Source: an uncultured beta proteobacterium
Lineage (GTDB): Bacteria > Pseudomonadota > Gammaproteobacteria > Burkholderiales > Rhodocyclaceae
Direction: 5' to 3'
NCBI GenBank assembly: GCA_903959855.1
Contig: CAJBYR010000292.1
Location: 1 to 58,681 of the forward strand
DNA: 58,681 bases
A program made the position numbers and the translations under genes. A model generated the notes under the pieces. The model had not been told where the DNA came from. It was given only the letters and a program-made list of their open reading frames with translations, and did no database searches. Positions 21,045 through 34,681 of the stretch are shown piece by piece (position 1 is the stretch's first letter; the number at the start of each line of letters is the position of its first letter).

Positions 21045-21491
21045 TTACTTGCCGGATTCACGTTTGGCGCGCGAAGTGGCCATGACCGTGGCCTCGCCAT
21101 CGATCACGACCTTGCCACCCACCGTACAGACCGTATCGAGCACCACACGCGCCTTGCCGACGACCACTTCCTTGACAGTAACCTTGGCATGCACGGTATC
21201 GCCGATACGCACCGGCGCCTTGAAGCGCAGCGACTGGGCCAGGTAAATCACACCGGGGCCGGGCAGGCGCGTGCCAAGAACGGCCGACAGCAGGCTGGCC
21301 GACAACATGCCGTGGGCGATGCGTCCGCCGAACATCGTGGTCTTGCCATATTCCTCGTCCAGATGCACGGCATTGGTATCGGTCGATACGGCGGTGAATA
21401 GGAGGATGTCGGCCTCGCTGATCGTCTTTGCCGTTTCGGCACTCATGCCGACAGAAATGTCCTCGATGTCGTAACCGTTTTGCGGATTCAT
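21045..21491 (-). CDS. MaoC/PhaJ-type (R)-specific enoyl-CoA hydratase
   Basis: A 148-residue hotdog protein with the hydratase-2 motif TDTNAVHLDEEYGKTTMFGGRIAHGML (D and H five apart, then the FGGRIAHGM loop). PhaJ enzymes of this length turn trans-2-enoyl-CoA into (R)-3-hydroxyacyl-CoA and link beta-oxidation to polyhydroxyalkanoate synthesis. The start is supported by AAAGGGAAACGTC before ATG 21491. The upstream 40 bases are AT-rich (TTTATTAAA) and could hold the promoter. Confidence 0.82.
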   Translation of the reverse strand: MNPQNGYDIEDISVGMSAETAKTISEADILLFTAVSTDTNAVHLDEEYGKTTMFGGRIAHGMLSASLLSAVLGTRLPGPGVIYLAQSLRFKAPVRIGDTVHAKVTVKEVVVGKARVVLDTVCTVGGKVVIDGEATVMATSRAKRESGK

Positions 21492-21530: not shown

Positions 21531-21896
21531 TCAGGCGGCAGGCTGAAGTTCCTGTTTCAGCGTTAGCAGCAGAGCCTCGATGCGCGAGGACAATTCAAGG
21601 TAGGCACCAATCGCGGAATCACTCATGTGCAAAATGTGCCCCTCGCGGATGGCGTCGGCAATGGACTTGGACTGGCGATGGAATTCCTCGTGCACCGGCA
21701 GCAGGTTGGCCACCGCCGGCGAATCCCTGAGCTCCGCGGCATTGGCCGTCAGCCAGCGACCAAGTTCGCATTGCGTGGGATCGCCCAACGGGCGCGTGTC
21801 GAAGTCCTCACCCTGGACGCGCCCGAGCGCGATATGGAACTTCATCTTCCATGCGCGGTGCATGGTCAGGGCATTGTCGAAATCGAAATCCTGCAT
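21531..21896 (-). CDS. Stand-alone CZB (chemoreceptor zinc-binding) protein
   Basis: A 121-residue single-domain protein matching the CZB fold found in chemoreceptors and in the diguanylate cyclase DgcZ. The four expected zinc ligands are visible: H13 (MHRAWKMKFH), C43 (CELGRWL), H69 and H73 (VHEEFH). I chose the ATG at 21896 (MQDFDFDNAL), with GAGGG 7 bases upstream, rather than the ATG 7 codons earlier. It probably senses zinc or hypochlorous acid and acts on a partner, since it has no output domain. Confidence 0.82.
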   Translation of the reverse strand: MQDFDFDNALTMHRAWKMKFHIALGRVQGEDFDTRPLGDPTQCELGRWLTANAAELRDSPAVANLLPVHEEFHRQSKSIADAIREGHILHMSDSAIGAYLELSSRIEALLLTLKQELQPAA

Positions 21897-21945
21897 AAGA
21901 ATTCCCTCAAGATGCATCTGGTTATTCTAAACCGGGCATCCGGCG

Positions 21946-23994
21946 TCATATTCCTGCTACGGTGAGCGCGGACCCGGTGAAACGCAGCAAGCCCGCAACC
22001 AGCAGCGCGATGCCGACGGAAAGGACCACCGAAAACAGAGCATCGCGCCGGCCGATGGTCTTCAGCATGACCGCAAAGGTAGACACGCAGGGTACGTAGA
22101 AGCTGATGAACGCAAGTAATACGAACATCTGCACGGGCGCCAGCACCGTGCCCAGTTCCTGGGTGCCCAAGGCCTGGTAGATCATCAGCAGCGAGAGTTC
22201 CTTGCGCAGCACGCCGAACAGGATGGGAACGCCCAGAGCCAGAGGCAAACCCAGCCACCAGACCGTAACCGGTGTCAGCAGCGCATTCACCATGGCATCG
22301 GCACCAAAATGCCCGAGCAGCGCCAGCAGCACGCTGCCCCCCACCAAAAGCGGCGTAACGATGGTGATGATGTCGCTGGTGCGGTTCCAGGTCTCAACCA
22401 GCAATCCTCGCCAGTTCGGCAACGCATAGGCCGGAATCTCCGGTACCCGTCCGGGGCCGAGTTCCAGATTTCCGCGGGATAGAACATGCCCGGCAACGCC
22501 GATCACCACCAGACTCAGTGCAAACATGGAGATCACCCCGGCAACGCCAAGGTACTTGCCGGCGATGGCGAGGATGATGGCCGAACGCGCCGAACAGGGA
22601 ACAAAGGTGATCAGCACCGCGGCGATCACGCGCTCGCGACCGGACGTGAGCCGCGCCGCGCCGGAGATTGCCGGCACATTGCAGCCCAGGCCGAGCAGGA
22701 AGGGCAGCGCCACGCCGCCATGCAGGCCGATGCGGTGGAAGCCGCGATCCACCACGAAGGCGATGCGCTGCATCAGGCCGGTCTGTTCCAGGCTGACCAG
22801 CAGCATCACCAATGGAATCATGTAGGGGACGACGATACCCGTGAGCCCGATGAGGCCATCGAGCACCGCGCGCCCGACCACGCCGCCGGTGGATTCCGGC
22901 TTCCAGTCGGCAAAGGCTTCAACGAGTTGAACCGTAGTCATGGAATCGATCCAGCCGCTGATCTCGAAGACGACGAAGAGCACGGCGGCAAACACTGCCA
23001 GGCTACCTATCAGACCCCACTGCGGATGGAGGAAGAGCTCGTCGAGCCAGTAGCGCCAGCCCTGTGCGCCCGGCGTGCCCATGCGCATCGCCGACTCAAC
23101 CAGGGTCGCGGCGCGGTGATGCTGGTCGGCGTGAAGTTCCTCGGCCAGCGGGCGTGGTAGTTCGATGCTGGCCACATCACGCAGCGCCAGCAGTTCCGGC
23201 AGCAATTGCGGGAAGTGCTCGTTCAGTTCGCGTTCGATGAACCCGTCGGCACCGGCAAATTGGAGCAACAGCCATTCGTGCGGCACGCGAAAGGCCGCAT
23301 GCACATCTTCCCGATTCAGCGCCGCGGAAAGCGGCTCCAGGCTTTTCGCAATATGCGGGCTGGCGGGCTGCGGCAACGGGCAACTGGCATTGCGCGCACT
23401 CGCCGCCGCCCACCCGAAGAGTTGCGGCAAGCCCTGCCCCATCAGCGCCACGGTCGGCACCACCGGCAGGCGCAGCGACTGTTCAAGGGCCTTGAGGTTG
23501 ATTTGCAGGCCCGTCTTAAGCGCCTCATCCATCTTGTTCAGCGCCATCACCACGGGCCGGCCAAGGCGGCAAAGCTCCAGCGTCAGTTCGAGGTGCGACT
23601 GCAGGCGGCTGGCATCGACCACCTGAATAATGAGGTCGGGCGGCGAAAACGGCACCGGCGGCGCGGTCGGCTCATGCCGGGACACCGCCGGACGCTCATC
23701 GCCCCACAACAGGTACTTGAGCGCAACGAGATCATCACCCGTCAGGTGCTGGAAGGATTGCACGTCAGGCAGTTCGACCAGGCTGGCTTCGTCCAGGCCG
23801 ATCTGCACGGTACATTCGCGATAGACCCGCGCCGTGCCGGTCAGCTCGCCGCTCTGCGGCGCGGCGCTGGACACGGCATCAAACAGGGTGGTTTTGCCAC
23901 CCCCCGGTAGCCCAACCAGCGCGATGCGCAGCCGCCGCTCGCCACGACGCAGCGGCAAGTGCAGCGGGATCGAGGCCTCAGAGCCGGTATTCAA
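21946..23994 (-). CDS. Divergent FeoB-like transporter with N-terminal G domain
   Basis: A protein of about 682 residues with the FeoB layout: a G domain (about 25-200), a helical linker, then a membrane part from about 325 with the two gate repeats. GLGCNVPAISGAARLTS and FVPCSARSAIILAIAG resemble the first FeoB gate, and VPCVSTFAVMLKTIGRRD the second. In the G domain, G1 (GLPGGGKTT) and G4 (ALNKMDE) are intact but G3 reads ELPDVQSF instead of DxxG, and FeoB's usual DLPGTYSL is missing. No feoA or feoC is adjacent. The TTG start at 23994 overlaps the upstream DUF294 gene by 17 bases and lacks a clear ribosome site, so the start is uncertain. Fe2+ or another metal is the likely cargo. Confidence 0.75.
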   Translation of the reverse strand: MNTGSEASIPLHLPLRRGERRLRIALVGLPGGGKTTLFDAVSSAAPQSGELTGTARVYRECTVQIGLDEASLVELPDVQSFQHLTGDDLVALKYLLWGDERPAVSRHEPTAPPVPFSPPDLIIQVVDASRLQSHLELTLELCRLGRPVVMALNKMDEALKTGLQINLKALEQSLRLPVVPTVALMGQGLPQLFGWAAASARNASCPLPQPASPHIAKSLEPLSAALNREDVHAAFRVPHEWLLLQFAGADGFIERELNEHFPQLLPELLALRDVASIELPRPLAEELHADQHHRAATLVESAMRMGTPGAQGWRYWLDELFLHPQWGLIGSLAVFAAVLFVVFEISGWIDSMTTVQLVEAFADWKPESTGGVVGRAVLDGLIGLTGIVVPYMIPLVMLLVSLEQTGLMQRIAFVVDRGFHRIGLHGGVALPFLLGLGCNVPAISGAARLTSGRERVIAAVLITFVPCSARSAIILAIAGKYLGVAGVISMFALSLVVIGVAGHVLSRGNLELGPGRVPEIPAYALPNWRGLLVETWNRTSDIITIVTPLLVGGSVLLALLGHFGADAMVNALLTPVTVWWLGLPLALGVPILFGVLRKELSLLMIYQALGTQELGTVLAPVQMFVLLAFISFYVPCVSTFAVMLKTIGRRDALFSVVLSVGIALLVAGLLRFTGSALTVAGI

Positions 23995-25867
23995 GCTGCA
24001 AGCGCGACTGCAGGCGTTTCGCCTGCTTGAAGGCTTCCTTCAACATTTGACGATCGAGCTCGTTGAGCTTGTCCGGGTCGATGCGATTCTCGCCCCCGGG
24101 GGCGGTACCGGCGCGCTGGTTGCGCAGGCGCAATTGCTGGATGATGAAAAATCCCTCGATCACCGCATTGATGTCATCTCCGCCCAGAAGCTGCTGCGCC
24201 GACGCGCTGCGCAATCGCTCGACCGTGCTGCTGTGCGGTATGTTGTGCGCCAGCGCGATGATGCGCGCCGCATCGACAAAGGGACGCGTACCGAAGGCCT
24301 TGAGGTCCAGGGTGTGCGGGAAGTCGGCATTATTGTCAAAGGTGAAGTCGCGGATCATGCCCAGCGGTGGCGTCGCCTTGACGGCGTTCTCGGCCATGAA
24401 ACGCAGGAACATCTTGGAATCCGCCGTCTGCGACAACAACCACTGCCGCAGCTCGCGCGCCAGTGCGTCGTCGCCGAACAGGGGCCGGAAGTCAAAGAAG
24501 ATCGTGGCGTTGAGCAAGGCCTCGGGGTCCCCTGAGCGGATCCACTTCGAGAAGCAGTCGCGCCACTCCTCCTGCGACAGGCACCAGGACGGATTGCTGG
24601 CCATGATGTTGCCCTTGCACAGGGGGAAGCCGCAACGCGCGAGCCCTTCGTTGACATCCTTGGCGAAAGCCAGAAAGCGCTGACGCAGGGCGTCGCAGTC
24701 GCTACCGCCGGGACAGGCAAAAATGATTCCGTTGTCCTGATCGGTGCTGAAGGTCTGCTCATCCCGGCCCTCGGAGCCGAAAGCCAGCCATGACCAGTGC
24801 AAGCCGTCGAAATCATGGTGATCCAGGCAAAGCTCGATCACGCGGCGGGTCAGGCTGTCGTTCAGCCCGGAAATAAACTGGGTCAGTTTCTCCGCATTGA
24901 CGCCCTGGGCGAGCATGTTGAGGCACAGGCGACGCACATCGCTGGCGGCGCGGGCGAGTTCGTCCATGTTTGCGGCGCCCTCGATCACCTTGCGCACGTT
25001 GCGCAGGCCGATGCGCTGCATGGCGAACAGGTCGCGTTCGGAAACCACGCCGGCCAACTTGCCATCCGCATCGACGATAACCAGATGGCGGATGCGATGC
25101 ATGGCCATCGCCAGCATCGCATCGTAGGCCGTGGCATGCGAGGAGATGGTGGCCGGCGGCGCGGTCATCACCTCGGCGACCGGCGCGGTGACCGCATGTC
25201 CGGGGATCACCACGCGGCGCAAGGCGTCGCTTTGGGTGAAGATGCCCGCGGGCTTGCCATCGGCATCGGCGATGATCACCGAACCGACCTTGGACTTGAC
25301 CATGGTTTCCATGGCAACGGCAATCGGCGTCGACGGCGCAATGCGGATCACGCTCGGACGCACAAACACCGTAAGCTGGGCATTCATGGTCTGCTGGTCG
25401 GCATTGCGCTGGCCGAACTGGATCTCGATCTGGCGGCGGGCCTCATGCAGCAGGCCGGCCACATGGTCGAGCACGAAGCGATTGAACTCGCAGCTCGACA
25501 GCAAGAGCGCGGCAAAGTCGGCGCTGGCCAGACGCCAACACCTGACCTCACCGACCGCGCTATAGACATTGATGGCCGGCCGCCGCGCCGCCGTCGCCGC
25601 CAGCGGAAAGCTCTGCCCGACTTCAAGGTTATATAGCGGTGGATCGATCAGGGTGACGTCACCAACCTGACGCACCTGCACCGTGCCCGACGAAATGATG
25701 TACAAATCCGGCGGCATGTCGTCCGGCGTCAGGATATGGCCGCCATCGGCGACGGTAACCGGCTTCAGTGCGGAAGCCAGCGCATCGAGGGCAAACGCGC
25801 CCATGTCCTTGAAGGGAGGATGGCAACGCAGGAAGGCGAGAATTTCCTCGCGTGATTCGGTACTCAT
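23978..25867 (-). CDS. cNMP-binding/CBS/DUF294 nucleotidyltransferase-like signalling protein
   Basis: A 629-residue multidomain protein: a cyclic-nucleotide-binding-type N-terminal domain (about 15-140, ending LLSSCEFNRFVLDH), a CBS pair (about 165-290; GSVIIADADGKPAGIFTQSDALR and HLVIVDADGKLAGVVSERDL), a DUF294 nucleotidyltransferase domain and the DUF294 C-terminal helical domain (about 480-629). The polymerase-beta-type active site is GSEGRDEQTFSTDQDNG near 360, with both aspartates of DQD present. This is the GlnD-like architecture thought to modify or sense a nucleotide, target unknown. It follows a shorter DUF294 paralogue by 8 bases. In several gammaproteobacteria such a gene neighbours actP and a DnaQ-like gene, supporting a link to acetate metabolism (inference). 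Confidence 0.83.
   Translation of the reverse strand: MSTESREEILAFLRCHPPFKDMGAFALDALASALKPVTVADGGHILTPDDMPPDLYIISSGTVQVRQVGDVTLIDPPLYNLEVGQSFPLAATAARRPAINVYSAVGEVRCWRLASADFAALLLSSCEFNRFVLDHVAGLLHEARRQIEIQFGQRNADQQTMNAQLTVFVRPSVIRIAPSTPIAVAMETMVKSKVGSVIIADADGKPAGIFTQSDALRRVVIPGHAVTAPVAEVMTAPPATISSHATAYDAMLAMAMHRIRHLVIVDADGKLAGVVSERDLFAMQRIGLRNVRKVIEGAANMDELARAASDVRRLCLNMLAQGVNAEKLTQFISGLNDSLTRRVIELCLDHHDFDGLHWSWLAFGSEGRDEQTFSTDQDNGIIFACPGGSDCDALRQRFLAFAKDVNEGLARCGFPLCKGNIMASNPSWCLSQEEWRDCFSKWIRSGDPEALLNATIFFDFRPLFGDDALARELRQWLLSQTADSKMFLRFMAENAVKATPPLGMIRDFTFDNNADFPHTLDLKAFGTRPFVDAARIIALAHNIPHSSTVERLRSASAQQLLGGDDINAVIEGFFIIQQLRLRNQRAGTAPGGENRIDPDKLNELDRQMLKEAFKQAKRLQSRLQLEYRL
25516..25537 (+). 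repeat. Dispersed 22-bp repeat, partial copy in DUF294 gene (antisense)
   Basis: Exact core AGTCGGCGCTG at 25516-25526; the right half reads ACGCCA. Confidence 0.5.
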
Positions 25868-25875
25868 GGTGATTC

Positions 25876-26946
25876 CTAGCTATCGATTTGGAAACGGGTC
25901 TTCAGCCGCTGCTGCAGGCTGCGCGCCTGGCGCAGGGTTTCAAGCAGGAGGCGGCGGTCGAATTCATTGAGGCTGTCGGGGTCGATCTGGTTGCCGGGTG
26001 CCGCACCCGCCACAACGGCGGAAGCCTGGGCCGCCAGACGTATGCCTTGCAGGGCGTGAAAGGCGTGGGCCGCCGCTTCGGCATCGGCTGGCGGGATTAT
26101 CCCATCTCCGGCCGCGCGGCGCAGCCGCGGCGCGGTTGCCGTCTCGGCGGAACCGCTGCCCAGCGCAAAAATACGCGCCGCATCGACAAAAATGCGCGAG
26201 CCGAACTTTTTCAGGTCAACGGTGCCGCCCGACTCCGGCACGGTGACGAAATCGCGCAGCCGACCCAGCGGGGGGGCGGCGGCCAGCGCATTCGCCGTCA
26301 TCATGCGCAGGAAGATCTCATTGCCGTAGGTCAGCTTTGCCAGTTCGCGGCGCAGGTCGGTTGCCAACGCGGAATCACCCGCCAGCGGCCGGAAATCAAA
26401 GAATATCGATGCGTTCAGCAAAGCCTCCGGTTCGGGCGTGCGCACCCAGGTCGTGAAGCTCTCCAGCCACTCCGACTGCGAAAGACACCAGCGCGGATTC
26501 CCGCCCATGATTTCGCCATCGCACAGCGGAAAGCCGCAATCGGCGAGCGCCTGGTTCACCGCGCGGGCAAACGGCAGAAACAGCTCGCGCAGGTCACGGG
26601 CCTCGCCGTCATCGCTGGCGGAAAAGACCAGGCCATTGTCCTGGTCGGTGGCGAGCGTCTGCTCAAGCCTCCCCTCCGAGCCCAGCCCCAGCCAGCACCA
26701 GCGGGCCGGCGGCAGGCGATAACGGGATTGAAGCACGACCAGAATGCGTTGCGTGATCGCGTCATTGAGCCGCGAGAGCACCCCGGTCACCAGGGCCGGT
26801 CCGGCCTCGGCGGCATGCAAGGCCAGCGCCAGCTCACGTGCCTGACCAGCGCAGTGCGCCAGGGATGCGACATCCACCGCGCCGGCAATGCGCGCCTCAC
26901 AGGCGGCGATAGCCGAGCTTTGCGGCAGGATCTCATGCTCGCTCAT
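25876..26946 (-). CDS. Short DUF294 nucleotidyltransferase-like protein
   Basis: A 356-residue paralogue of the following gene, with only the nucleotidyltransferase (LGSEGRLEQTLATDQDNGLVF near residue 115) and the DUF294 C-terminal domain; the cNMP and CBS modules are absent. Both proteins also share GNPRWCLSQSEW and ASIFFDFRPL, so the pair arose by duplication or domain loss. I chose the ATG at 26946 (MSEHEILPQ), 16 bases after the exonuclease gene stop; the frame is open upstream only as a shadow of that gene. A catalytic subunit and a sensing subunit acting together is a reasonable guess. Confidence 0.82.
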   Translation of the reverse strand: MSEHEILPQSSAIAACEARIAGAVDVASLAHCAGQARELALALHAAEAGPALVTGVLSRLNDAITQRILVVLQSRYRLPPARWCWLGLGSEGRLEQTLATDQDNGLVFSASDDGEARDLRELFLPFARAVNQALADCGFPLCDGEIMGGNPRWCLSQSEWLESFTTWVRTPEPEALLNASIFFDFRPLAGDSALATDLRRELAKLTYGNEIFLRMMTANALAAAPPLGRLRDFVTVPESGGTVDLKKFGSRIFVDAARIFALGSGSAETATAPRLRRAAGDGIIPPADAEAAAHAFHALQGIRLAAQASAVVAGAAPGNQIDPDSLNEFDRRLLLETLRQARSLQQRLKTRFQIDS

Positions 26947-26962
26947 GGCGAAGTGACCGCAG

Positions 26963-29200
26963 TCAATACTGAATGCGCGCGAAATAGGTCTTCTGCGCCG
27001 CTTCCAGCGCCTGGCGCAGCGTGACGATGCCCATGTCGGCAAGCAGGGGGACCATCTTGAGGAAGACCTCGCCGGTGACGAAGGCGTCACCCAGTGCCGT
27101 ATGGCGGCCGATGACGTTGATCCCCAGGCGCTCGGCGATCAGCTCCAGCTTGTGCGATTCCTGGTTGGGATGGATCACCGCCGACAGCAGCAGGGTGTCG
27201 AGCACCGGCTGGGTGAATTTGATACCAAGGCTATCCTCCTTCAACTGGAAGAAGCGCATGTCGAAGGCGGCGTTGTGCGCCACCAGCACCGTCTCGTGGC
27301 AAAACTCGTGGAAAGCCGGCAGCACCACGTCGAGCTGCGGCTGGCCGGCAATCATGGCCTCGGTGATGCCGTGGATCGGAATGCCCTCGGGTTTCAGCGG
27401 AACCCGCGGATCGACCAACTGATCGAAGATCTCCTGGCGCAGCAGGCGGTTGTTGACAATGCGCACGGCACCCATCTGGATGATCTCGTCACCCTGCGAA
27501 GGCTGCAGGCCGGTGGTCTCGGTGTCGAACACCGAGTAGGCCAGTTCGGTCAGCTTGCGGTCGAGATCGATGCCCGCACCTTCGGCATCGCGCGCGGCAA
27601 AGAGATCGAAGTCGTAATACTCGGGACGGCTGTCGCTGTGCAGGTGCTGGGCCTGGTCCGCCACCGGCGCATCCGGCGTCGTCGCCGCCGGCAGCACAAT
27701 GCGGAAAAACGCCCGGTGCGCGGCTTTCTCGCGCTGGTACCAGATCTCGCCGCCATGGCGCTCGACCACGTCGCGCAAGGTCAGCGGACTGGATTCGTTG
27801 CCAACGTTCATCGGCTCCAATTCCCAGGTGTAGAGGGTCTCCGAGGACACCGTGGTGCCCGACCAGATCAGGTCCACGAATACCATCTTGCCCTCGGCAG
27901 CGAGGCGCAAGCGCAGTTCGCGGATCTCGTAGTGGTCCTGCAGGCGCGAGGCGAGGAAGGTAATGGCCTGGATCAGCGAGAAACTGTCAACGCGCATCCA
28001 CAGGCTCGCATCCTCCTCTTCGTGCTTGATCGGCAGCTTCAGCTTGTCCTCGATGCGCCGCGCCGCCGCCGAGAGGATGTCGATCGCCAGCACGTCTTCC
28101 AGGGGCCAACGCGTTTTCAGCGAATCGGCAAAGCGGTTCATGGTCGCATTCAGGCGCGAACTCATGGCCGAGGCCTCGTCGGAAATCACGCGCATGAAGC
28201 GCTCACGGATTTCCGCCTCCATCTCCGGTGAATCGAGCAGCGTCTCGACGGCGGCGCGGATGTTGCCCAGCGCGGCACGGTTGCCGTCGGTCAAGGTCTG
28301 CAAGGCCTGGTCGCGTTCGGCCTCGCGTTCGAAATTGCGGGTGATGTTTTCGATGGTCAGGACGTAGCCGGTGACATGCTGTTCGGCACCCAGGGGATTG
28401 ACCCTGTCCAGCGTCGGTCCGCCATCTCCCTCGCCCTCCGCCTTGGCGGCATCGGACCGCCCCAGCACCGGCGCCATCTGTGCCCTGAGCAACTGGCCGC
28501 CACGCGTGGTGGTGATGAAGTTGGCGGTCGGTTCGGCGCTGCCCTTGCGCAGGCGCTGCTGGATGTTCTCCAGCGAGTGTGTGATCTGGCCGCGCTCGAG
28601 GATGGAAAAGATCGAACGCCCCAGGCCGATCAGGGCGCCACCGCTCATTGATGTCGGCCCTTGCGCCAGGGCCTTGAATTGCAGGCGGGCACGACTGTTG
28701 TAGAGCAGGATGCGGCCATCGAGGTTGCAGACCACCACGCCCTGCGCCAGTTCCGACATCAGTGCGGCGAGCCGGTTCTTTTCCTCCTCGACCGTGGCCT
28801 TGGCCACACGGATTTGCGCCTCGACATCATCGAGCAGTTCGTTGCGCTGTTGGGCCAGGTCATTGGCCGCACGGGCGAGTTCGCGAACCTCCGGCGGCCC
28901 GTCCAGCGAAACCCGGAAACCGCGGTTGGCACCTAGCATCAGGCGCAAGGTCTCCGACATGCGCAGCAGGCCATGGACATACTGCTGGAACAGGGCGCGC
29001 AAGAGCTGCAGGCCGAGGAACAAGGCGATGAGTGTGATGAAGCCACCGATGGGTAGCCAGCGGTCCATGGCGAGGATGAACCCGGCACGCTCATCGGGGC
29101 CAAGGTCGGCCCAGAGTATCCCCACGGTCATCAGGAAAGGTCCCGTCATCAGCAGCCCGAGCGCCGCCACGGCGAGCCCGAAACGCGTCTTGGCGTTCAT
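26963..29200 (-). CDS. Membrane pseudokinase-like sensor fused to DnaQ-type 3'-5' exonuclease
   Basis: A 745-residue fusion. It has two membrane helices (about 8-30 and 50-70), a HAMP-like linker, a PAS-like region (about 140-300), a dimerisation/ATPase region resembling a histidine kinase (about 300-510), then a DEDDh exonuclease (about 555-730). The exonuclease is intact: FDTETTGL near 556, AHNAAFDMRFF near 638 and HTALGDAF near 697. The kinase half appears dead: the phosphoacceptor region reads DGNRAALGNIRAAVETLL with no histidine, and the glycine boxes are lost. It overlaps the response regulator gene (ATGA). In Pseudomonas-type genomes simpler DnaQ-like genes sit next to DUF294 and actP genes. 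The substrate (DNA, RNA or a signalling oligonucleotide) is unknown. Confidence 0.82.
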   Translation of the reverse strand: MNAKTRFGLAVAALGLLMTGPFLMTVGILWADLGPDERAGFILAMDRWLPIGGFITLIALFLGLQLLRALFQQYVHGLLRMSETLRLMLGANRGFRVSLDGPPEVRELARAANDLAQQRNELLDDVEAQIRVAKATVEEEKNRLAALMSELAQGVVVCNLDGRILLYNSRARLQFKALAQGPTSMSGGALIGLGRSIFSILERGQITHSLENIQQRLRKGSAEPTANFITTTRGGQLLRAQMAPVLGRSDAAKAEGEGDGGPTLDRVNPLGAEQHVTGYVLTIENITRNFEREAERDQALQTLTDGNRAALGNIRAAVETLLDSPEMEAEIRERFMRVISDEASAMSSRLNATMNRFADSLKTRWPLEDVLAIDILSAAARRIEDKLKLPIKHEEEDASLWMRVDSFSLIQAITFLASRLQDHYEIRELRLRLAAEGKMVFVDLIWSGTTVSSETLYTWELEPMNVGNESSPLTLRDVVERHGGEIWYQREKAAHRAFFRIVLPAATTPDAPVADQAQHLHSDSRPEYYDFDLFAARDAEGAGIDLDRKLTELAYSVFDTETTGLQPSQGDEIIQMGAVRIVNNRLLRQEIFDQLVDPRVPLKPEGIPIHGITEAMIAGQPQLDVVLPAFHEFCHETVLVAHNAAFDMRFFQLKEDSLGIKFTQPVLDTLLLSAVIHPNQESHKLELIAERLGINVIGRHTALGDAFVTGEVFLKMVPLLADMGIVTLRQALEAAQKTYFARIQY

Positions 29201-29562
29201 GCCAGCAACGTCTTGATCTGCGCGACCAAATCCTTGGTGGAAAACGGCTTGGTGATGTAGGCGTTGGCGCCCAATGCCAACCCCTTCGTGACTTCGGTCT
29301 CGCGGCCCTTGGCCGTCAGCATGATGATCTTGAGATCGGCCATTGTCGCATCCGCGCGCAGCAACTCGCAGACCTCGAAGCCCGATTTCTTCGGCATCAT
29401 GACATCGAGCAGCATCAGGTGCGGACGGAACTCGGTAGCCTTATGCAAGGCGGCGTCGCCATCGGTGGCCACCGTGACGTCGAAGCCTTCTTTCTTCAGC
29501 AGATACTCAAGCGATATGACGATATTCGGTTCGTCATCAACAATCAGTATGCGATGCGCCAC
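29197..29562 (-). CDS. CheY-like single-domain response regulator
   Basis: A 121-residue receiver domain with no output domain. The acidic pocket is D9/D10 (VDDEPN), the phosphoacceptor D53 (LLDVMMP), T83 (MLTAKG) and the conserved lysine K105 (ITKPFS). It sits between the SSS-type histidine kinase gene and the pseudokinase-exonuclease gene, overlapping the latter by ATGA. It most likely relays phosphate from the kinase to a protein target, possibly the fused exonuclease or a DUF294 protein; this is inference, since CrbR-type systems instead use a LuxR-type DNA-binding regulator. Confidence 0.87.
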   Translation of the reverse strand: MAHRILIVDDEPNIVISLEYLLKKEGFDVTVATDGDAALHKATEFRPHLMLLDVMMPKKSGFEVCELLRADATMADLKIIMLTAKGRETEVTKGLALGANAYITKPFSTKDLVAQIKTLLA

Positions 29563-29573
29563 TAGCTCCCCCC

Positions 29574-32324
29574 TTAGGAATTTTTCCCATTATCACCCGC
29601 CTGACGGGGCAGGGTAAACAGGAAGCGCGCGCCTGCGCCAGGCGAGCTTTCAACCCAAAGGCGGCCGTTGAAGTATTCGATGATCTGGCGGCTGATGGGC
29701 AGGCCCAGGCCGGTGCCCTGCGGCTTGTCGGTAAGCACGTCGGTTCCGCCCGAACCCTGGCGAAACTTGTCGAAAATCAGCTCTTGATCAGCGGCGGCTA
29801 TGCCGGGGCCGTTGTCGCTGACGCTGACACGCACCTCATTCGCCGTACCGTCAGCGCCGACTCTCACCCTGCCGCTATCGGTAGGCACGAACTTCAGCGC
29901 GTTCGACAGCAAATTCACCATGACCTGCATCAGGCGGTCGCGGTCGGCCATCACCGTGAGTCCCGTCTGTAACCCGGCCAGATCCAGCGTGACGCGTTTT
30001 TCGGCAAACAGCACCGTCAGCGAATCCGCCGCCTCGTGGATCACCTCGTCGACATCGATCGCTGTCACCGTCCATTCGGCGCGGCCGGATTCGAGCTTGG
30101 CGAGGTCGAGGATCTGGTTGATCAGGCGCGACAGGCGCACGGTTTCGCTGACGATGATGCCGAGAAACTTGGTGCGCTGTTCCAGATCGGTTTTCGGATC
30201 CTCGTGCAGCATTTCGGAAAACGCGCGAATCGAGGTCAGCGGCGTGCGCAGCTCGTGGGTCACGGTGGAAATGAAATCGTCCTTCATCCGGTCGAGCTCG
30301 CGCAGGCGCTCGTTGGCATCGCGCAACTCGGCCGTGGCGCGTGTAAGCTCGCGCGACTTCTGCTCCAACTCGCGCGAATAGGCGCGCACCTGCGATGCCT
30401 CGTCGAGGATGTTCATCACCTCGTCGATGCCCAAGGGCTCTTCGCTGACCACTGACGCCACCATGGCGCGCGCCGACGCCGAACCAATGGCGCCGGTGAG
30501 CAGGTTCTCGGCGAAATTGACCAGCCGTGTGTCAGCCGGCAGTTCCTTTACCGAATTCAGGCCACGCTGCCTGGCATGGCGCAGAAAGGCTTCCTCGGCA
30601 CGCTCGCGGCCGAGGAAGCGGCTGGCCAGTGGCAGCAGGTCGGCAACGCCGGCACTGGCACTCCAGCCGGAATGCCCTGCCGCCTCGTTGCCGCCGACAA
30701 AAAGTGTGGCCTGCCGCGCCTCCCGCACGTTCGGTACCCGCTGAATCGAGATACCGATATAGAAGCCAAGGTTGGCGAGCAGGCTCCAGACCAGGCAATG
30801 CGTGATCTCGTCGAGGCCGGTCAATCCGAACAGGTGCTGCGGGCGCAGCAGTTCGACGCCAAACAGGCCATGGGCGATGAAACCGTCGGGCAGCCATCCC
30901 GACTTGGCAAAGGAGGGCAACAGCAGCGTGTAGGCCCAGAGCACGAAGCCGGCCGCCAATCCCGCCAGGGCGCCATCACGCGTGCCGCCCTTCCAGAACA
31001 GGCCGCCGATCACCACCGGGGCGAATTGGGCCACAGCCGCAAAGGAAATCAGTCCGATCGAAACCAGTGCATAGGCCTCGCCGGCAACACGAAAGTACAG
31101 GTAGCCCAGGCCGAGGATGATGGCGATGGCCCAGCGCCGGATTTCCAGCAGCAGGCCGGAAAGGTCGGCCTTGGCGGCAAGCCCCAGCCAGGGCATGCGC
31201 AGCAGCAGCGGCATCACCAGGTCGTTGCAGACCATGGTCGATAGCGCAATGGTCTCGACGATGACCATGCCGGTGGCCGCCGACAGACCACCGATGAAGA
31301 CGAACAGTGCCAGCGCTTCCTGCTGGTGCGCCATCGGCAGCGTCAGCACGAAGGTATCGGCATCCACCCCGCCGGCCTTGAAGTGCAGCAGGCCGGCCAG
31401 CGCCACGGGCAGCACGAAGATGTTGATCAGGAACAGGTAGAGCGGAAACATCCAGACAGCGCGGCGCAGGTGGCTCTCATCGACGTTCTCCACCACGGCG
31501 ATCTGAAATTGACGCGGCAGCAGGAGCGACGCAAACATCGAGAGGAAGATCAGCGTTCCCCAGGTGCCGTAGGCTGCCGGCGTGTCGGCGCTGGCAAGAC
31601 GGCGCGCCACGTCGGGCATGGCTGCCGCGCGCGCAAAGATATCGGCAACGCCGTCATGCAGGCCCCAGACCACGAACACACCCACCGCCAGGAAGGCGCC
31701 GAGCTTGACCAGGGATTCGACTGCAATTGCCGCCACCATGCCTTCGTGACGCTCAGTGGCATCCAGATGCCGGGTGCCGAAGAGAATGGTGAACGCCGCC
31801 AGGATCATTGCCACGTAGAGCGCGCTGTCCTGCAGTATCGGCACCGCGCCGGCCGCCGCCGGCATGATGATTTCGGGATAGCTCGACAGGATCGAGAAGC
31901 TGTTCGACACCGCCTTCAACTGCAGTGCAATGTAGGGAATCACGCCGACCACCGCGATCACCGTGACCAGGCCGCCGAGCAGTTGGCTCTTGCCGTAGCG
32001 CGAGGCAACGAAGTCCGCAATCGAGGTGATGCGGTTCACCTTGGCCACCCGGATCATCTTGAAGAGAATGAAACCGGCCAGGGCAAAGAGCAGCGTCGGC
32101 CCCAGGTAGATAGGCAGGAAACCGATGCCGCTGGCCGCCGCGCGTCCAACGCTGCCGTAGAAAGTCCAGGTGGTGCAATACACGCCAAGGGACAGCGCAT
32201 ACACCGCCGGATTCGCAATCAGCGAACGTCCGAGGTCGGCACGCCGATCCGCATACCAGGCGATGGCGAACAGCACCCCGAGATACAGGAAGGACGCCAG
32301 GACAACAACCCAGCCCTGAAGCAT
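29574..32324 (-). CDS. SSS-transporter/STAC/histidine kinase fusion (CrbS/CbrA-like)
   Basis: A 916-residue sensor kinase. The N-terminal 530 residues or so form a sodium:solute symporter-like domain with 13 or so hydrophobic segments. A STAC linker (NFAENLLTGAIGSASARAMVAS and the following segment) and a coiled coil follow. The kinase core has the H box THELRTPLTS (H690), N box NLLSNALKF, G1 DNGPGI and G2 GTGLGLPIS. CbrA senses histidine-related cues and CrbS controls acetyl-CoA synthetase; the acs gene lying just upstream favours a CrbS-like acetate role. The gene overlaps the small membrane protein upstream (ATGA). The dispersed repeat at 29841-29864 encodes RVGADGTA in a loop just before G1. 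Confidence 0.86.
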   Translation of the reverse strand: MLQGWVVVLASFLYLGVLFAIAWYADRRADLGRSLIANPAVYALSLGVYCTTWTFYGSVGRAAASGIGFLPIYLGPTLLFALAGFILFKMIRVAKVNRITSIADFVASRYGKSQLLGGLVTVIAVVGVIPYIALQLKAVSNSFSILSSYPEIIMPAAAGAVPILQDSALYVAMILAAFTILFGTRHLDATERHEGMVAAIAVESLVKLGAFLAVGVFVVWGLHDGVADIFARAAAMPDVARRLASADTPAAYGTWGTLIFLSMFASLLLPRQFQIAVVENVDESHLRRAVWMFPLYLFLINIFVLPVALAGLLHFKAGGVDADTFVLTLPMAHQQEALALFVFIGGLSAATGMVIVETIALSTMVCNDLVMPLLLRMPWLGLAAKADLSGLLLEIRRWAIAIILGLGYLYFRVAGEAYALVSIGLISFAAVAQFAPVVIGGLFWKGGTRDGALAGLAAGFVLWAYTLLLPSFAKSGWLPDGFIAHGLFGVELLRPQHLFGLTGLDEITHCLVWSLLANLGFYIGISIQRVPNVREARQATLFVGGNEAAGHSGWSASAGVADLLPLASRFLGRERAEEAFLRHARQRGLNSVKELPADTRLVNFAENLLTGAIGSASARAMVASVVSEEPLGIDEVMNILDEASQVRAYSRELEQKSRELTRATAELRDANERLRELDRMKDDFISTVTHELRTPLTSIRAFSEMLHEDPKTDLEQRTKFLGIIVSETVRLSRLINQILDLAKLESGRAEWTVTAIDVDEVIHEAADSLTVLFAEKRVTLDLAGLQTGLTVMADRDRLMQVMVNLLSNALKFVPTDSGRVRVGADGTANEVRVSVSDNGPGIAAADQELIFDKFRQGSGGTDVLTDKPQGTGLGLPISRQIIEYFNGRLWVESSPGAGARFLFTLPRQAGDNGKNS
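29841..29864 (-). repeat. Dispersed 22-bp repeat, copy in the sensor kinase gene
   Basis: The minus strand reads AGAGTCGGCGCTG, ACGGT, ACGGCG. It is in frame as RVGADGTA, immediately before the G1 box of the ATPase domain. Confidence 0.8.
31583..31604 (+). repeat. Dispersed 22-bp repeat, variant copy in the sensor kinase gene (antisense)
   Basis: TGTCGGCGCTG, GCAAG, ACGGCG: one mismatch in the left core and an exact right half. Confidence 0.6.
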
Positions 32325-32524
32325 CAGTCGTGCTTCCTTTCCACGACCAGGGCCAGCAAGCCGATCAGCGTCAGCCAGGACACCATGAGCCAGGCATACA
32401 GCGGCGGGAAGCCGAATATGCTGCCGCCCTTGTTGAAGATGGACAGTACCGGATAGTTGAAAAAGAAGCAGCCGAGCAGAAACAGGAAGGCCAGGCGCTG
32501 CGACGTCAGGCGGGTGCGGATCAT
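32324..32524 (-). CDS. Small two-helix membrane protein preceding the SSS kinase
   Basis: A 66-residue protein with two hydrophobic helices (RLAFLFLLGCFFFNYPVLSIF and YAWLMVSWLTLIGLLALVV) and a charged C-terminus (ERKHD). Small membrane proteins translationally coupled to SSS transporters or SSS kinases (DUF485 with ActP, CbrX with CbrA) are known; this fills the same position, overlapping the kinase start as ATGA. The ribosome site GGGGGAGATGAAAAG precedes the ATG. It is the first gene of the apparent seven-gene operon running to the FeoB-like gene. Confidence 0.78.
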   Translation of the reverse strand: MIRTRLTSQRLAFLFLLGCFFFNYPVLSIFNKGGSIFGFPPLYAWLMVSWLTLIGLLALVVERKHD

Positions 32525-32674: not shown

Positions 32675-34657
32675 TCAGGCGTTTTGCTTGAGCTGATCCA
32701 GGATCTGCGGGTTCTCAAGCGTCGAGATGTCCTGCGTAACCTCTTCGTTCTTCGCCAGGCTGCGCAGCAGGCGGCGCATGATCTTGCCGGAACGCGTCTT
32801 GGGCAGGTTCTCGCCGAAACGGATGTCCTTGGGCTTGGCGATCGGGCCGATTTCCTTGCCGACCCAGTTGCGCAGTTCAGCAGCGATCTTCTTGGCTTCC
32901 TCGGCGCTCGGGCGGGATTGCTTGAGCACCACGAAGGCACAGATGGCTTCGCCGGTCAGGTCGTCGGGACGGCCGACCACGGCGGCTTCCGCCACCAGCG
33001 GGTTGGAGACCAGCGCCGATTCGATTTCCATGGTGCCCATGCGGTGGCCGGAAACGTTGAGCACGTCGTCGATGCGGCCCATGATGGTGAAGTTGCCGGT
33101 CTTAGCATCACGCACCGCGCCGTCACCGGCGAGATACAGCTTGCCGCTGAAGTCGACGGGGTAGTAGGACTTTTTGAAGCGCTCCGGGTCGCCCCAGATG
33201 TTGCGGATCATCGAGGGCCAGGGCTTCTTGACGACGAGGAAACCACCGTTGCCCCAGGGTACGTCAGCACCGGTCTCGTCGACGATGGCGGCCTGGATGC
33301 CCGGGAAAGGCAGCGTGCAGGAGCCGGGGACCAGCGGCGTGACGCCGGGCAGCGGAGTGATCATGTGGCCGCCGGTTTCCGTCTGCCAGAAGGTATCGAC
33401 GATCGGGCAACGGCTGCCGCCGACATTGTCGTAGTACCACATCCAGGCTTCGGGATTAATCGGCTCGCCGACGGAACCGAGGATGCGCAGCGAGGTCAGA
33501 TCGTAGTTCTTCGGATGCGTCGTCGGGGTGTTTTCGCCGGACTTGATCAGCGAACGGATCGCCGTCGGCGCGGTGTAGAAAATGCTGACCTTGTGTGCCT
33601 GGATGGTTTTCCAGAAACGGCCGGCGTCCGGATAGGTGGGCACGCCTTCGAAGACGATCTCGGTGGCGCCGCAGGCCAGCGGGCCGTAGGTGATGTAGGT
33701 GTGACCCGTTACCCAGCCGATGTCGGCCGTGCACCAGAAGATGTCGTCCGGCTTGATGTCGAAGGTCCACTTCATGGTCAGGATCGCGTGCAGCAGATAG
33801 CCGCCCGAACTGTGCTGGACACCCTTCGGCTTGCCGGTGGAACCCGAGGTGTAAAGCAGGAACAGGGGATGCTCGGCATCGACCCACTCGGGTTCGCAAA
33901 CGTCGGACTGGCCGGCGCAGGCGTCATCCCACCAGGTGTCGCGGCCGGCGACCATGTTGCAGGTGCCGCCGGTGCGCTTGAAGACGATCACCGAATGGAT
34001 CGACTCGCAGCCGCCCATGGCGATGCCCTCGTCGACCGCGGGCTTGAGCGGAATATTCTTGCCGCCGCGGCACTGCTCGTCCGAGGTGATGACGGCAACA
34101 GCGCCGGCATCCTGGATGCGCTCCTGCACCGACTTGGCGGAGAAGCCGCCGAACACTACGGAGTGAATCGCGCCGATGCGGGCGCAGGCCTGCATGGCGA
34201 CGACACCCTCAACCGACATCGGCATGTAGATCAGGACGCGGTCGCCCTTCTTGATGCCCTTGGCCTTGAGCGCGTTGGCGAAGGTCGCGACCTTGGCCAG
34301 AAGTTCCTTGTAGGTGATCTTGGTGGACTGGCCGCCGTCGGCTTCGAAAATGATCGCGACCTTGTCGCCGAGGCCGGCTTCGACGTTGCGGTCGAGGCAG
34401 TTGTAAGAGACGTTCAGCTTGCCGTCGGCAAACCACTTGTAGAAAGGGGCACCGGATTCATCCAGCGACTGGGTGAAGGGCTCCTTCCAGGTCACGTGCT
34501 CGCGGGCCAGACGGGCCCAGTAACCGGCGTAGTCCTGATCCGCTTCCTTGCACAGCGCCTCATAGGCGGCCATGCCGGAAATCGTGGCCTTCTTGACCAC
34601 TGCGTCGGACGGGGGGAATACGCGAGTTTCATTGGATACTGATTCGATTGCGGACAT
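32675..34657 (-). CDS. acs: Acetyl-CoA synthetase (AMP-forming)
   Basis: A 660-residue enzyme making acetyl-CoA from acetate, ATP and CoA; length and sequence match classical Acs throughout. Motifs are [16 protein letters not shown] (P-loop), [18 protein letters not shown] (adenine and acetate pocket), [34 protein letters not shown] (hinge) and [13 protein letters not shown], whose lysine is the target of Pat-type acetylation that switches Acs off. The ATG at 34657 is preceded by AGAGGAGAGG. Expression is probably controlled by the SSS kinase encoded just downstream, as in CrbSR systems; I infer this from position, not from a visible binding site. Confidence 0.94.
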
Positions 34658-34681
34658 TGAAACCTCTCCTCTCACAGATTA

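Follow-up and report, generated by a model that had tools for sequence, protein, structure and literature searches.

A candidate signaling module with a pseudokinase-exonuclease and DUF294 proteins, conserved from the Rhodocyclaceae to other Pseudomonadota

The gene run and its pseudokinase-exonuclease

The window analyzed here is the 58,681-nucleotide contig CAJBYR010000292.1 (assembly GCA_903959855.1) of an uncultured beta proteobacterium of the Rhodocyclaceae, and the system in question is a gene run at positions 21946 to 32524 that contains a sensor kinase, a receiver, a kinase-like protein fused to an exonuclease, and two DUF294 proteins. It is best explained, in our view, as one copy of a widespread signaling module whose output is enzymatic rather than transcriptional, an explanation to which we assign, taken as a whole, a probability of about 0.4. 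The original prediction, made from the sequence alone, had described seven closely packed genes, and seven genes were found on the minus strand, every junction being an overlap or a gap of at most 16 bases:

32324-32524, minus strand: membrane protein of 66 amino acids (aa) with two hydrophobic stretches, overlapping the start of the kinase gene by 1 base
29574-32324, minus strand: SSS-type sensor histidine kinase (HisKA and HATPase_c by Pfam), catalytic residues intact
29197-29562, minus strand: lone CheY-like receiver of 121 aa (Response_reg by Pfam), phosphoacceptor Asp53 and Lys105 present
26963-29200, minus strand: pseudokinase-exonuclease (pHK-exo), assigned by Pfam (RNase_T), alignment, and structure model
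25876-26946, minus strand: short DUF294 protein (DUF294/DUF294_C by Pfam) with a GlnE/DrrA-like nucleotidyltransferase fold in the model
23978-25867, minus strand: cNMP-binding-like/CBS/DUF294 protein (DUF294/DUF294_C and CBS by Pfam; cNMP match below the Pfam cutoff)
21946-23994, minus strand: divergent FeoB-like protein (FeoB_N/Gate by Pfam)

The most likely start of the short DUF294 gene is the ATG at 26946, 16 bases past the preceding stop.

The pHK-exo protein consists of two hydrophobic stretches, a long coil, a PAS-like part (weak Pfam match), a DHp and a CA-like domain, and a C-terminal DEDDh exonuclease. We gathered 118 such proteins, left out one of fewer than 550 aa, and aligned 117; the 19 rows whose His motif is intact were kept separate, which left 98 rows from near and distant loci, related ones included. 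None of the 98 has the phosphoacceptor His, the site being occupied by Glu in 47 and by Asp in 29. The N-box Asn is present in 3 rows; no row has the G1 Asp, and 93 have Trp at this site. Of the G2 glycines, the first is kept in 3 rows and the second in 54. The catalytic Asp-Glu-Asp-His-Asp set of the exonuclease is retained in 94, 94, 94, 95, and 94 of the 98 rows, respectively; the predicted fusion of a degenerate kinase to a DnaQ-type exonuclease is supported. Three proteins of one family, f77 (L107, L109, and L115), combine a dead kinase with a dead exonuclease yet keep an open frame of ∼690 aa. In the single-contig genome G002, a frame disruption splits the pHK-exo gene (L062), which could be a sequencing error or a pseudogene.

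An AlphaFold model of full-length pHK-exo (pLDDT, 77; pTM, 0.36) shows N-terminal helices, a long coil, the PAS-like part, the DHp and CA-like domains, and the exonuclease; in view of the low pTM and the low TM-scores to whole kinases, the domains alone were interpreted. Foldseek matched it best to a WalK model and the VicK-type kinase 4i5s. For the exonuclease part, the alignment was with Pol III epsilon (2ido), at a TM-score of 0.84 of the target.

The SSS part of the sensor kinase (residues 7 to 473) matches PDB chain 10ed_A (“histidine kinase”) at 1e−75 and TIGR03648 weakly, which, together with HisKA and HATPase_c, upholds its earlier assignment as an SSS-type kinase. A crude scan gave nine hydrophobic peaks in this part, a count that does not settle the number of helices. 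Pfam and NCBIfam yielded no SSS hit, no STAC hit, and no hit for the 66-aa protein; by its position, the region between the transporter part and the kinase is a putative STAC domain. The own genome gave 35 kinase matches, of which the kinase of the window alone aligns over the SSS part. The kinase core is intact in linked SSS kinases (His in 126, Asn in 125, and G1 Asp in 125 of 128), and linked receivers carry the phosphoacceptor Asp in 138 of 144 rows, six of these 144 looking like misread frames. Response_reg, Asp53, and Lys105 likewise agree with the predicted lone CheY-like receiver. The linked regulator at the locus is this 121-aa receiver, and none of the seven genes encodes a DNA-binding output, as had been noted before; CrbR was not searched for elsewhere in the genome.

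Conservation, receiver linkage, and neighborhood of the module

Relatives were found with a profile of the pseudokinase part, which matched in 21 of 369 class-level genomes and 46 of 398 phylum-level genomes (own genome included in both). The class loci stem from all 20 other class-level genomes with a match; for the phylum loci, 34 of the 45 other matching genomes were added; of the remaining 11, G424 was part of the class set and 10 were left out. The named set consists of the 80 best among 392 confirmed stretches; it includes many close relatives and shares assemblies with the near loci, so the two sets are not summed. pHK-exo was recognized in all 34 phylum and all 80 named loci, in 39 of 40 near loci, and in 20 of 24 class loci; the remaining loci were missed by the rule (L068), have no recognizable exonuclease (L107, L109, and L115), or contain another kinase (L124).

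A receiver lies directly upstream of pHK-exo in 39 of 54 distant loci, compared to 2 of 292 non-module open reading frames (ORFs) of at least 250 aa in these loci by the same rule (crude ORF picking), and a recount with tblastn confirmed all 39 and added L161 (40/54). Of the same 54 loci, 39 have DUF294 within 7 kb and 33 an SSS kinase; a symporter of the ActP or VC_2705 type is present in 26, and Acs in 18. The SSS kinase is encoded downstream of pHK-exo in 25 loci and upstream of it in 7, with 1 more on the opposite strand. DUF294 precedes pHK-exo in 26 loci and follows it in 1, and 12 loci have it on the opposite strand. Since the partners stay together while their order changes, the module is very probably a functional unit. 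Genes resembling the 66-aa gene occur in 27 of the 54 loci by direct phmmer; a looser profile gave 32 but matched misread frames, too. The 66-aa protein itself is CbrX-like by position and topology alone.

The 80 named loci contain a receiver in 67 (72 by tblastn) and an SSS kinase in 69; DUF294 was found in 47 on the same strand and 4 on the opposite strand, the symporter in 47 and 4, and Acs in 50 and 1. The predicted neighborhood with acetate genes is supported, and the conservation that the original prediction had proposed to look for reaches far beyond the genus: the module is present in Rhodocyclaceae, other Burkholderiales, Paracoccus, and further Pseudomonadota. The named relatives include Azonexus hydrophilus, Aromatoleum, Thauera, Azoarcus, Zoogloea, Denitromonas, Rhodoferax, and Noviherbaspirillum. 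Plasmid 1 of Paracoccus denitrificans PD1222 (PDEN_RS25395-25415) encodes, in order, a DUF294-type protein, a small protein, an “ATP-binding protein,” a response regulator, and an “exonuclease domain-containing protein,” and its kinase is 55% identical to that of the window over the whole length. The order in Marivivens JLT3646 is acs, DUF4212, symporter, DUF294, hypothetical, response regulator, and 3′-5′ exonuclease. Because the same genes are found together again elsewhere in the genus and in distant genomes, we do not regard the arrangement as chance. Databases annotate the module just as “exonuclease domain-containing protein” and putative nucleotidyltransferase. A protein of 160 to 177 aa, grouped by position and not by tested homology, is encoded between DUF294 and the receiver/pHK-exo genes at L173:7906-8430, L177:8251-8781, L175:9918-10448, and, in Rhodobacterales, L326:7805-8293; those of L175 and L177 have no Pfam match.

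The link between receiver and DHp domain was analyzed in the 51 distant loci with at least 700 bases upstream. DHp is intact in all 40 loci with an adjacent receiver and lost in 6 of the 11 without one (Fisher P = 2.6e−5, with related loci counted as independent); with the first receiver count, these figures were 39 of 39 and 6 of 12. A tree from which the DHp columns had been left out places the losses at three points, namely, one group of four (L175, L176, L177, and L179), L184, and L121. L172 and L173, the sisters of the group of four, have the receiver and keep DHp. In Caulobacter, the pseudo-histidine-kinase DivL binds the phosphorylated lone receiver DivK, with reversed signal flow (PMC5361649, excerpts), and by analogy, docking of the receiver on the pseudokinase appears reasonably probable.

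The own genome holds two pHK-exo genes. The second copy (L034), 51% identical, is located on contig C265 in the order receiver, pHK-exo, and CBS/DUF294, after panC; this 13.5-kb contig contains no SSS kinase and no FeoB-like gene, and the smallest unit seen is therefore receiver, pHK-exo, and DUF294. In L058 and L061, the order is acs, receiver, pHK-exo, and DUF294, with no SSS kinase between. A receiver that adjoins pHK-exo in these three loci without a nearby SSS kinase, together with the joint loss of receiver and DHp, argues against reading the run as an ordinary CrbS-type acetate regulator with its DNA-binding partner elsewhere and with clustered genes that are merely coregulated acetate genes. 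That explanation draws on Pseudomonas, where CrbR/ErdR controls actP and the CBS/DUF294 gene, with the exonuclease gene in the operon of the latter (per the excerpted sources), and we consider it quite unlikely.

Four further features border the run:

32675-34675, minus strand: acs, acetyl-CoA synthetase, the upstream neighbor and probably a separate unit
32657-32628, minus strand: intrinsic-terminator-like hairpin and T-run between acs and the 66-aa gene
21531-21917: CZB (chemoreceptor zinc-binding) protein, 28 bases beyond the FeoB-like gene
21045-21491: MaoC protein, 39 bases beyond the CZB gene

The strong hairpin is formed by G and C bases and followed by the T-run. A hairpin and T-run occur at the same position in relatives across the Rhodocyclaceae: a loose rule finds them in 63 of 69 intergenic stretches, and a strict rule finds them in 46 of 67 unique stretches, compared to an average of 0.5 and at most 2 over 20 shuffles. 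Because this conserved element separates acs from the 66-aa gene, acs is probably its own transcription unit; as the first gene of the operon it was rejected, and it is a conserved neighbor instead. The original prediction had placed the run directly after acs, which holds for the position and probably not for the transcript.

At its other end, the run may extend through the CZB and MaoC genes, which follow the FeoB-like gene in most loci of the same genus. The FeoB-like protein scores 254 to 259 bits, below the feoB equivalog cutoff of 315.65 (TIGR00437), and the own genome has no other full-length FeoB-like match. The gene was found in 21 of the 39 near loci and 6 of the 80 named ones, every one from the genus of the window, and in none of the 54 distant loci. 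By this sequence comparison the gene is a genus-level addition, and metal uptake, which had been considered part of the logic of the module, was rejected as part of its core, the gene being confined to this genus among the loci examined. Within the genus, the order acs, small protein, SSS kinase, receiver, pHK-exo, short DUF294, cNMP/CBS/DUF294, FeoB-like, CZB, and MaoC is largely kept, with gaps such as the missing full short DUF294 in L039, L046, L047, and L057 and the missing CZB in L050 to L052. Three loci of the family from other genera (L053, L054, and L061) have a VC_2705-type SSS symporter (TIGR03648) in place of the FeoB-like gene, in one of them with a DnaQ-like gene in front of the symporter. 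A free DnaQ-like protein follows DUF294 at L053:3021-3692; it has no Pfam match at an E value of ≤0.01 and carries Ala instead of Glu in the first exonuclease motif, so it is possibly inactive. The own genome encodes a VC_2705-type symporter (TIGR03648, above cutoff) at a contig edge away from the operon (G000:C189:1-1188).

DUF294 proteins and the proposed enzymatic output

The model of the short DUF294 protein (pLDDT, 93) gave four PDB matches at E values of ≤0.001 in Foldseek, three to GlnE (1v4a, the N-terminal domain, and 3k7d twice, two chains of the adenylylation domain) and one to DrrA (6yx5). Aminoglycoside adenylyltransferases matched at E values of >0.01 alone, and a sequence search for a solved DUF294 structure found none at an E value of ≤1. 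PF03445 also gives weak matches on GlnD-sized proteins, of which the one checked has GlnD_UR_UTase and HD. A G-S...D-x-D motif is present, its D-x-D being kept in 162 to 163 of 170 linked DUF294 proteins. Nucleotidylation as the mode of action of DUF294 was predicted by Aravind and Koonin in 1999 (cited from PMC5715377, excerpts). Domains, residues, and fold agree with the original prediction of a nuclease and nucleotidyltransferases as likely outputs, and of the two kinds of signal that it had offered, nucleotide based or protein modification, the modeled GlnE-like fold points to protein nucleotidylation, a chemistry that stays conjectural here.

These data bear on two further explanations. 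DUF294 could make a short oligonucleotide signal, or modify a small molecule, that the exonuclease degrades, with the CBS and cNMP-like domains sensing a ligand; the pairing of genes like a synthase and a hydrolase and the CBS and weak cNMP matches would fit, but the fold search favors the protein adenylyltransferases GlnE and DrrA over the aminoglycoside enzymes, and we regard this idea as distinctly improbable. Even less probable, in our estimate, is that the two DUF294 proteins of the genus form a writer/remover pair like the halves of GlnE, with an unrelated role for the pseudokinase-exonuclease. The two nucleotidyltransferase domains of GlnE do run opposite reactions (PMC12663964, excerpts), and both tandem DUF294 genes of the window have intact motifs, but many loci combine a single DUF294 gene with the exonuclease.

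All three DUF294 genes of the own genome above the Pfam cutoff lie within two genes of a pHK-exo gene. Class-level genomes also contained 12 strong DUF294 hits without pHK-exo, 10 of which were examined as loci. In 7 of them (L281, L282, L284, L285, L286, L288, and L291), DUF294 is directly followed by an exonuclease ORF; L283 ends at a contig edge, and L280 and L290 have no exonuclease ORF. This pairing without a pseudokinase agrees with Pseudomonas putida, in which PP_0354 (CBS/DUF294 type) and PP_0353 (exonuclease) form an operon (PMC9927547, excerpts). According to the same excerpts, deletion of PP_0353 impairs growth on pyruvate and deletion of PP_0354 does not, an asymmetry that would fit the loss of an eraser rather than of a writer. 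That a nuclease can have such chemistry is indicated by RNase Z, which is a deAMPylase (PMC12663964, excerpts).

According to our preferred explanation, the SSS-type kinase would sense a small carboxylate (acetate or pyruvate) or its flux and phosphorylate the lone receiver. The phosphorylated receiver would dock on the DHp helices of the His-less membrane pseudokinase and thereby set the activity of the attached DEDDh exonuclease, a reversed signal flow as for DivK∼P on DivL. DUF294 would act as a GlnE-like nucleotidyltransferase, gated by the CBS and cNMP-like domains, and the exonuclease domain would oppose its nucleotidylation. A target in carboxylate uptake or activation, with the SSS symporter and Acs as candidates, might thus be reversibly nucleotidylated. 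The opposition of exonuclease and DUF294 as eraser and writer is the most conjectural part, along with its target, and we put it forward tentatively. Still bolder, and on balance rather doubtful, is the full proposition of a two-component system that directly controls reversible protein nucleotidylation, in which DUF294 is the writer, the DEDDh exonuclease a dedicated deAMPylase/denucleotidylase, and the phosphorylated receiver the switch of the eraser via the fused membrane pseudokinase.

The same relay could instead lead to an exonuclease that acts on RNA, e.g., acetate, pyruvate, or glyoxylate mRNAs, giving posttranscriptional control with DUF294 as a parallel modifier. In favor of this, the domain belongs to the canonical DEDDh exonucleases, with Pol III epsilon and PolC as close relatives, and a role of PP_0353 in mRNA decay is speculated on by the authors of PMC9927547 (excerpts); this alternative leaves the recurrent pairing with DUF294, in two architectures, unexplained, and we hold it to be rather unlikely.

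Several observations weigh against the module as we propose it. Five of the 11 receiver-less loci (L103, L104, L106, L111, and L156) keep DHp, possibly with a receiver elsewhere in the genome, so that the association is not strict, and no receiver, SSS kinase, or DUF294 was found near 6 of the 54 distant loci (L103, L104, L108, L110, L111, and L156), the first view of L108 and L110 being cut by the contig end. Covariation between receiver and DHp gave no signal, but this analysis had no power, as the positive control (receiver versus SSS kinase) gave none either, at an effective number of ∼15. The exonuclease residues are gone in L107, L109, and L115, and acs looks like a separate transcription unit at this locus. 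We found no biochemistry for any DUF294 or pHK-exo protein, and we know of no precedent for a DEDDh exonuclease acting as a deAMPylase. The excerpts of PMC9927547 report no acetate phenotype for PP_0353 and PP_0354 mutants, and the same holds for a Pflu5625 mutant as far as its excerpted source goes.

Pseudokinases that read a receiver are rarely reported, and few bacterial pseudokinases have been studied (PMC5361649, excerpts); the module offers many natural variants in which reverse signal flow could be tested. If the exonuclease does strip nucleotides from protein, DUF294 proteins would gain both a job and an eraser, and the need for a putative exonuclease in the normal use of pyruvate by P. 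putida could be explained.

Comparison with known systems

Each part of the module has been described before, from SSS-type kinases, lone receivers, and pseudokinases to DEDDh exonucleases and GlnE-like transferases; for their combination, we found no description in the open-license PMC literature, and searches that paired an exonuclease with either a histidine kinase or DUF294 returned no paper. CbrA of Pseudomonas differs from the kinase described here in its partner, CbrB, which is of the NtrC type. The CbrX-CbrA pair is similar in that a small two-helix ORF overlaps the gene of an SSS-type kinase (PMC6591292, excerpts), the likeness of the small proteins being one of position and topology. 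CrbS/CrbR (MxtR/ErdR) shares the SSS-type sensor kinase and the acetate setting, and its regulon includes acs, actP, and a CBS/DUF294 gene in an operon with an RNase_T exonuclease gene (PMC5715377 and PMC9927547, excerpts). Its output, however, is the DNA-binding LuxR-type CrbR, and its exonuclease is free, whereas a lone receiver and a pseudokinase-fused exonuclease are found here.

DivK-DivL of Caulobacter has in common with the module a lone receiver and a pseudo-histidine-kinase that retains DHp, reverse signal flow being described for DivL (PMC5361649, excerpts). DivL has Tyr in place of His and acts on CckA, whereas mostly Glu or Asp occupies this site in pHK-exo, and the likely effector is the fused exonuclease. 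DUF294 resembles GlnE and GlnD in fold, nucleotidyltransferase motif, and HEPN-like C-terminal domain (PMC3710099, excerpts), and it differs from them in having CBS and cNMP-like sensors and no built-in remover domain.

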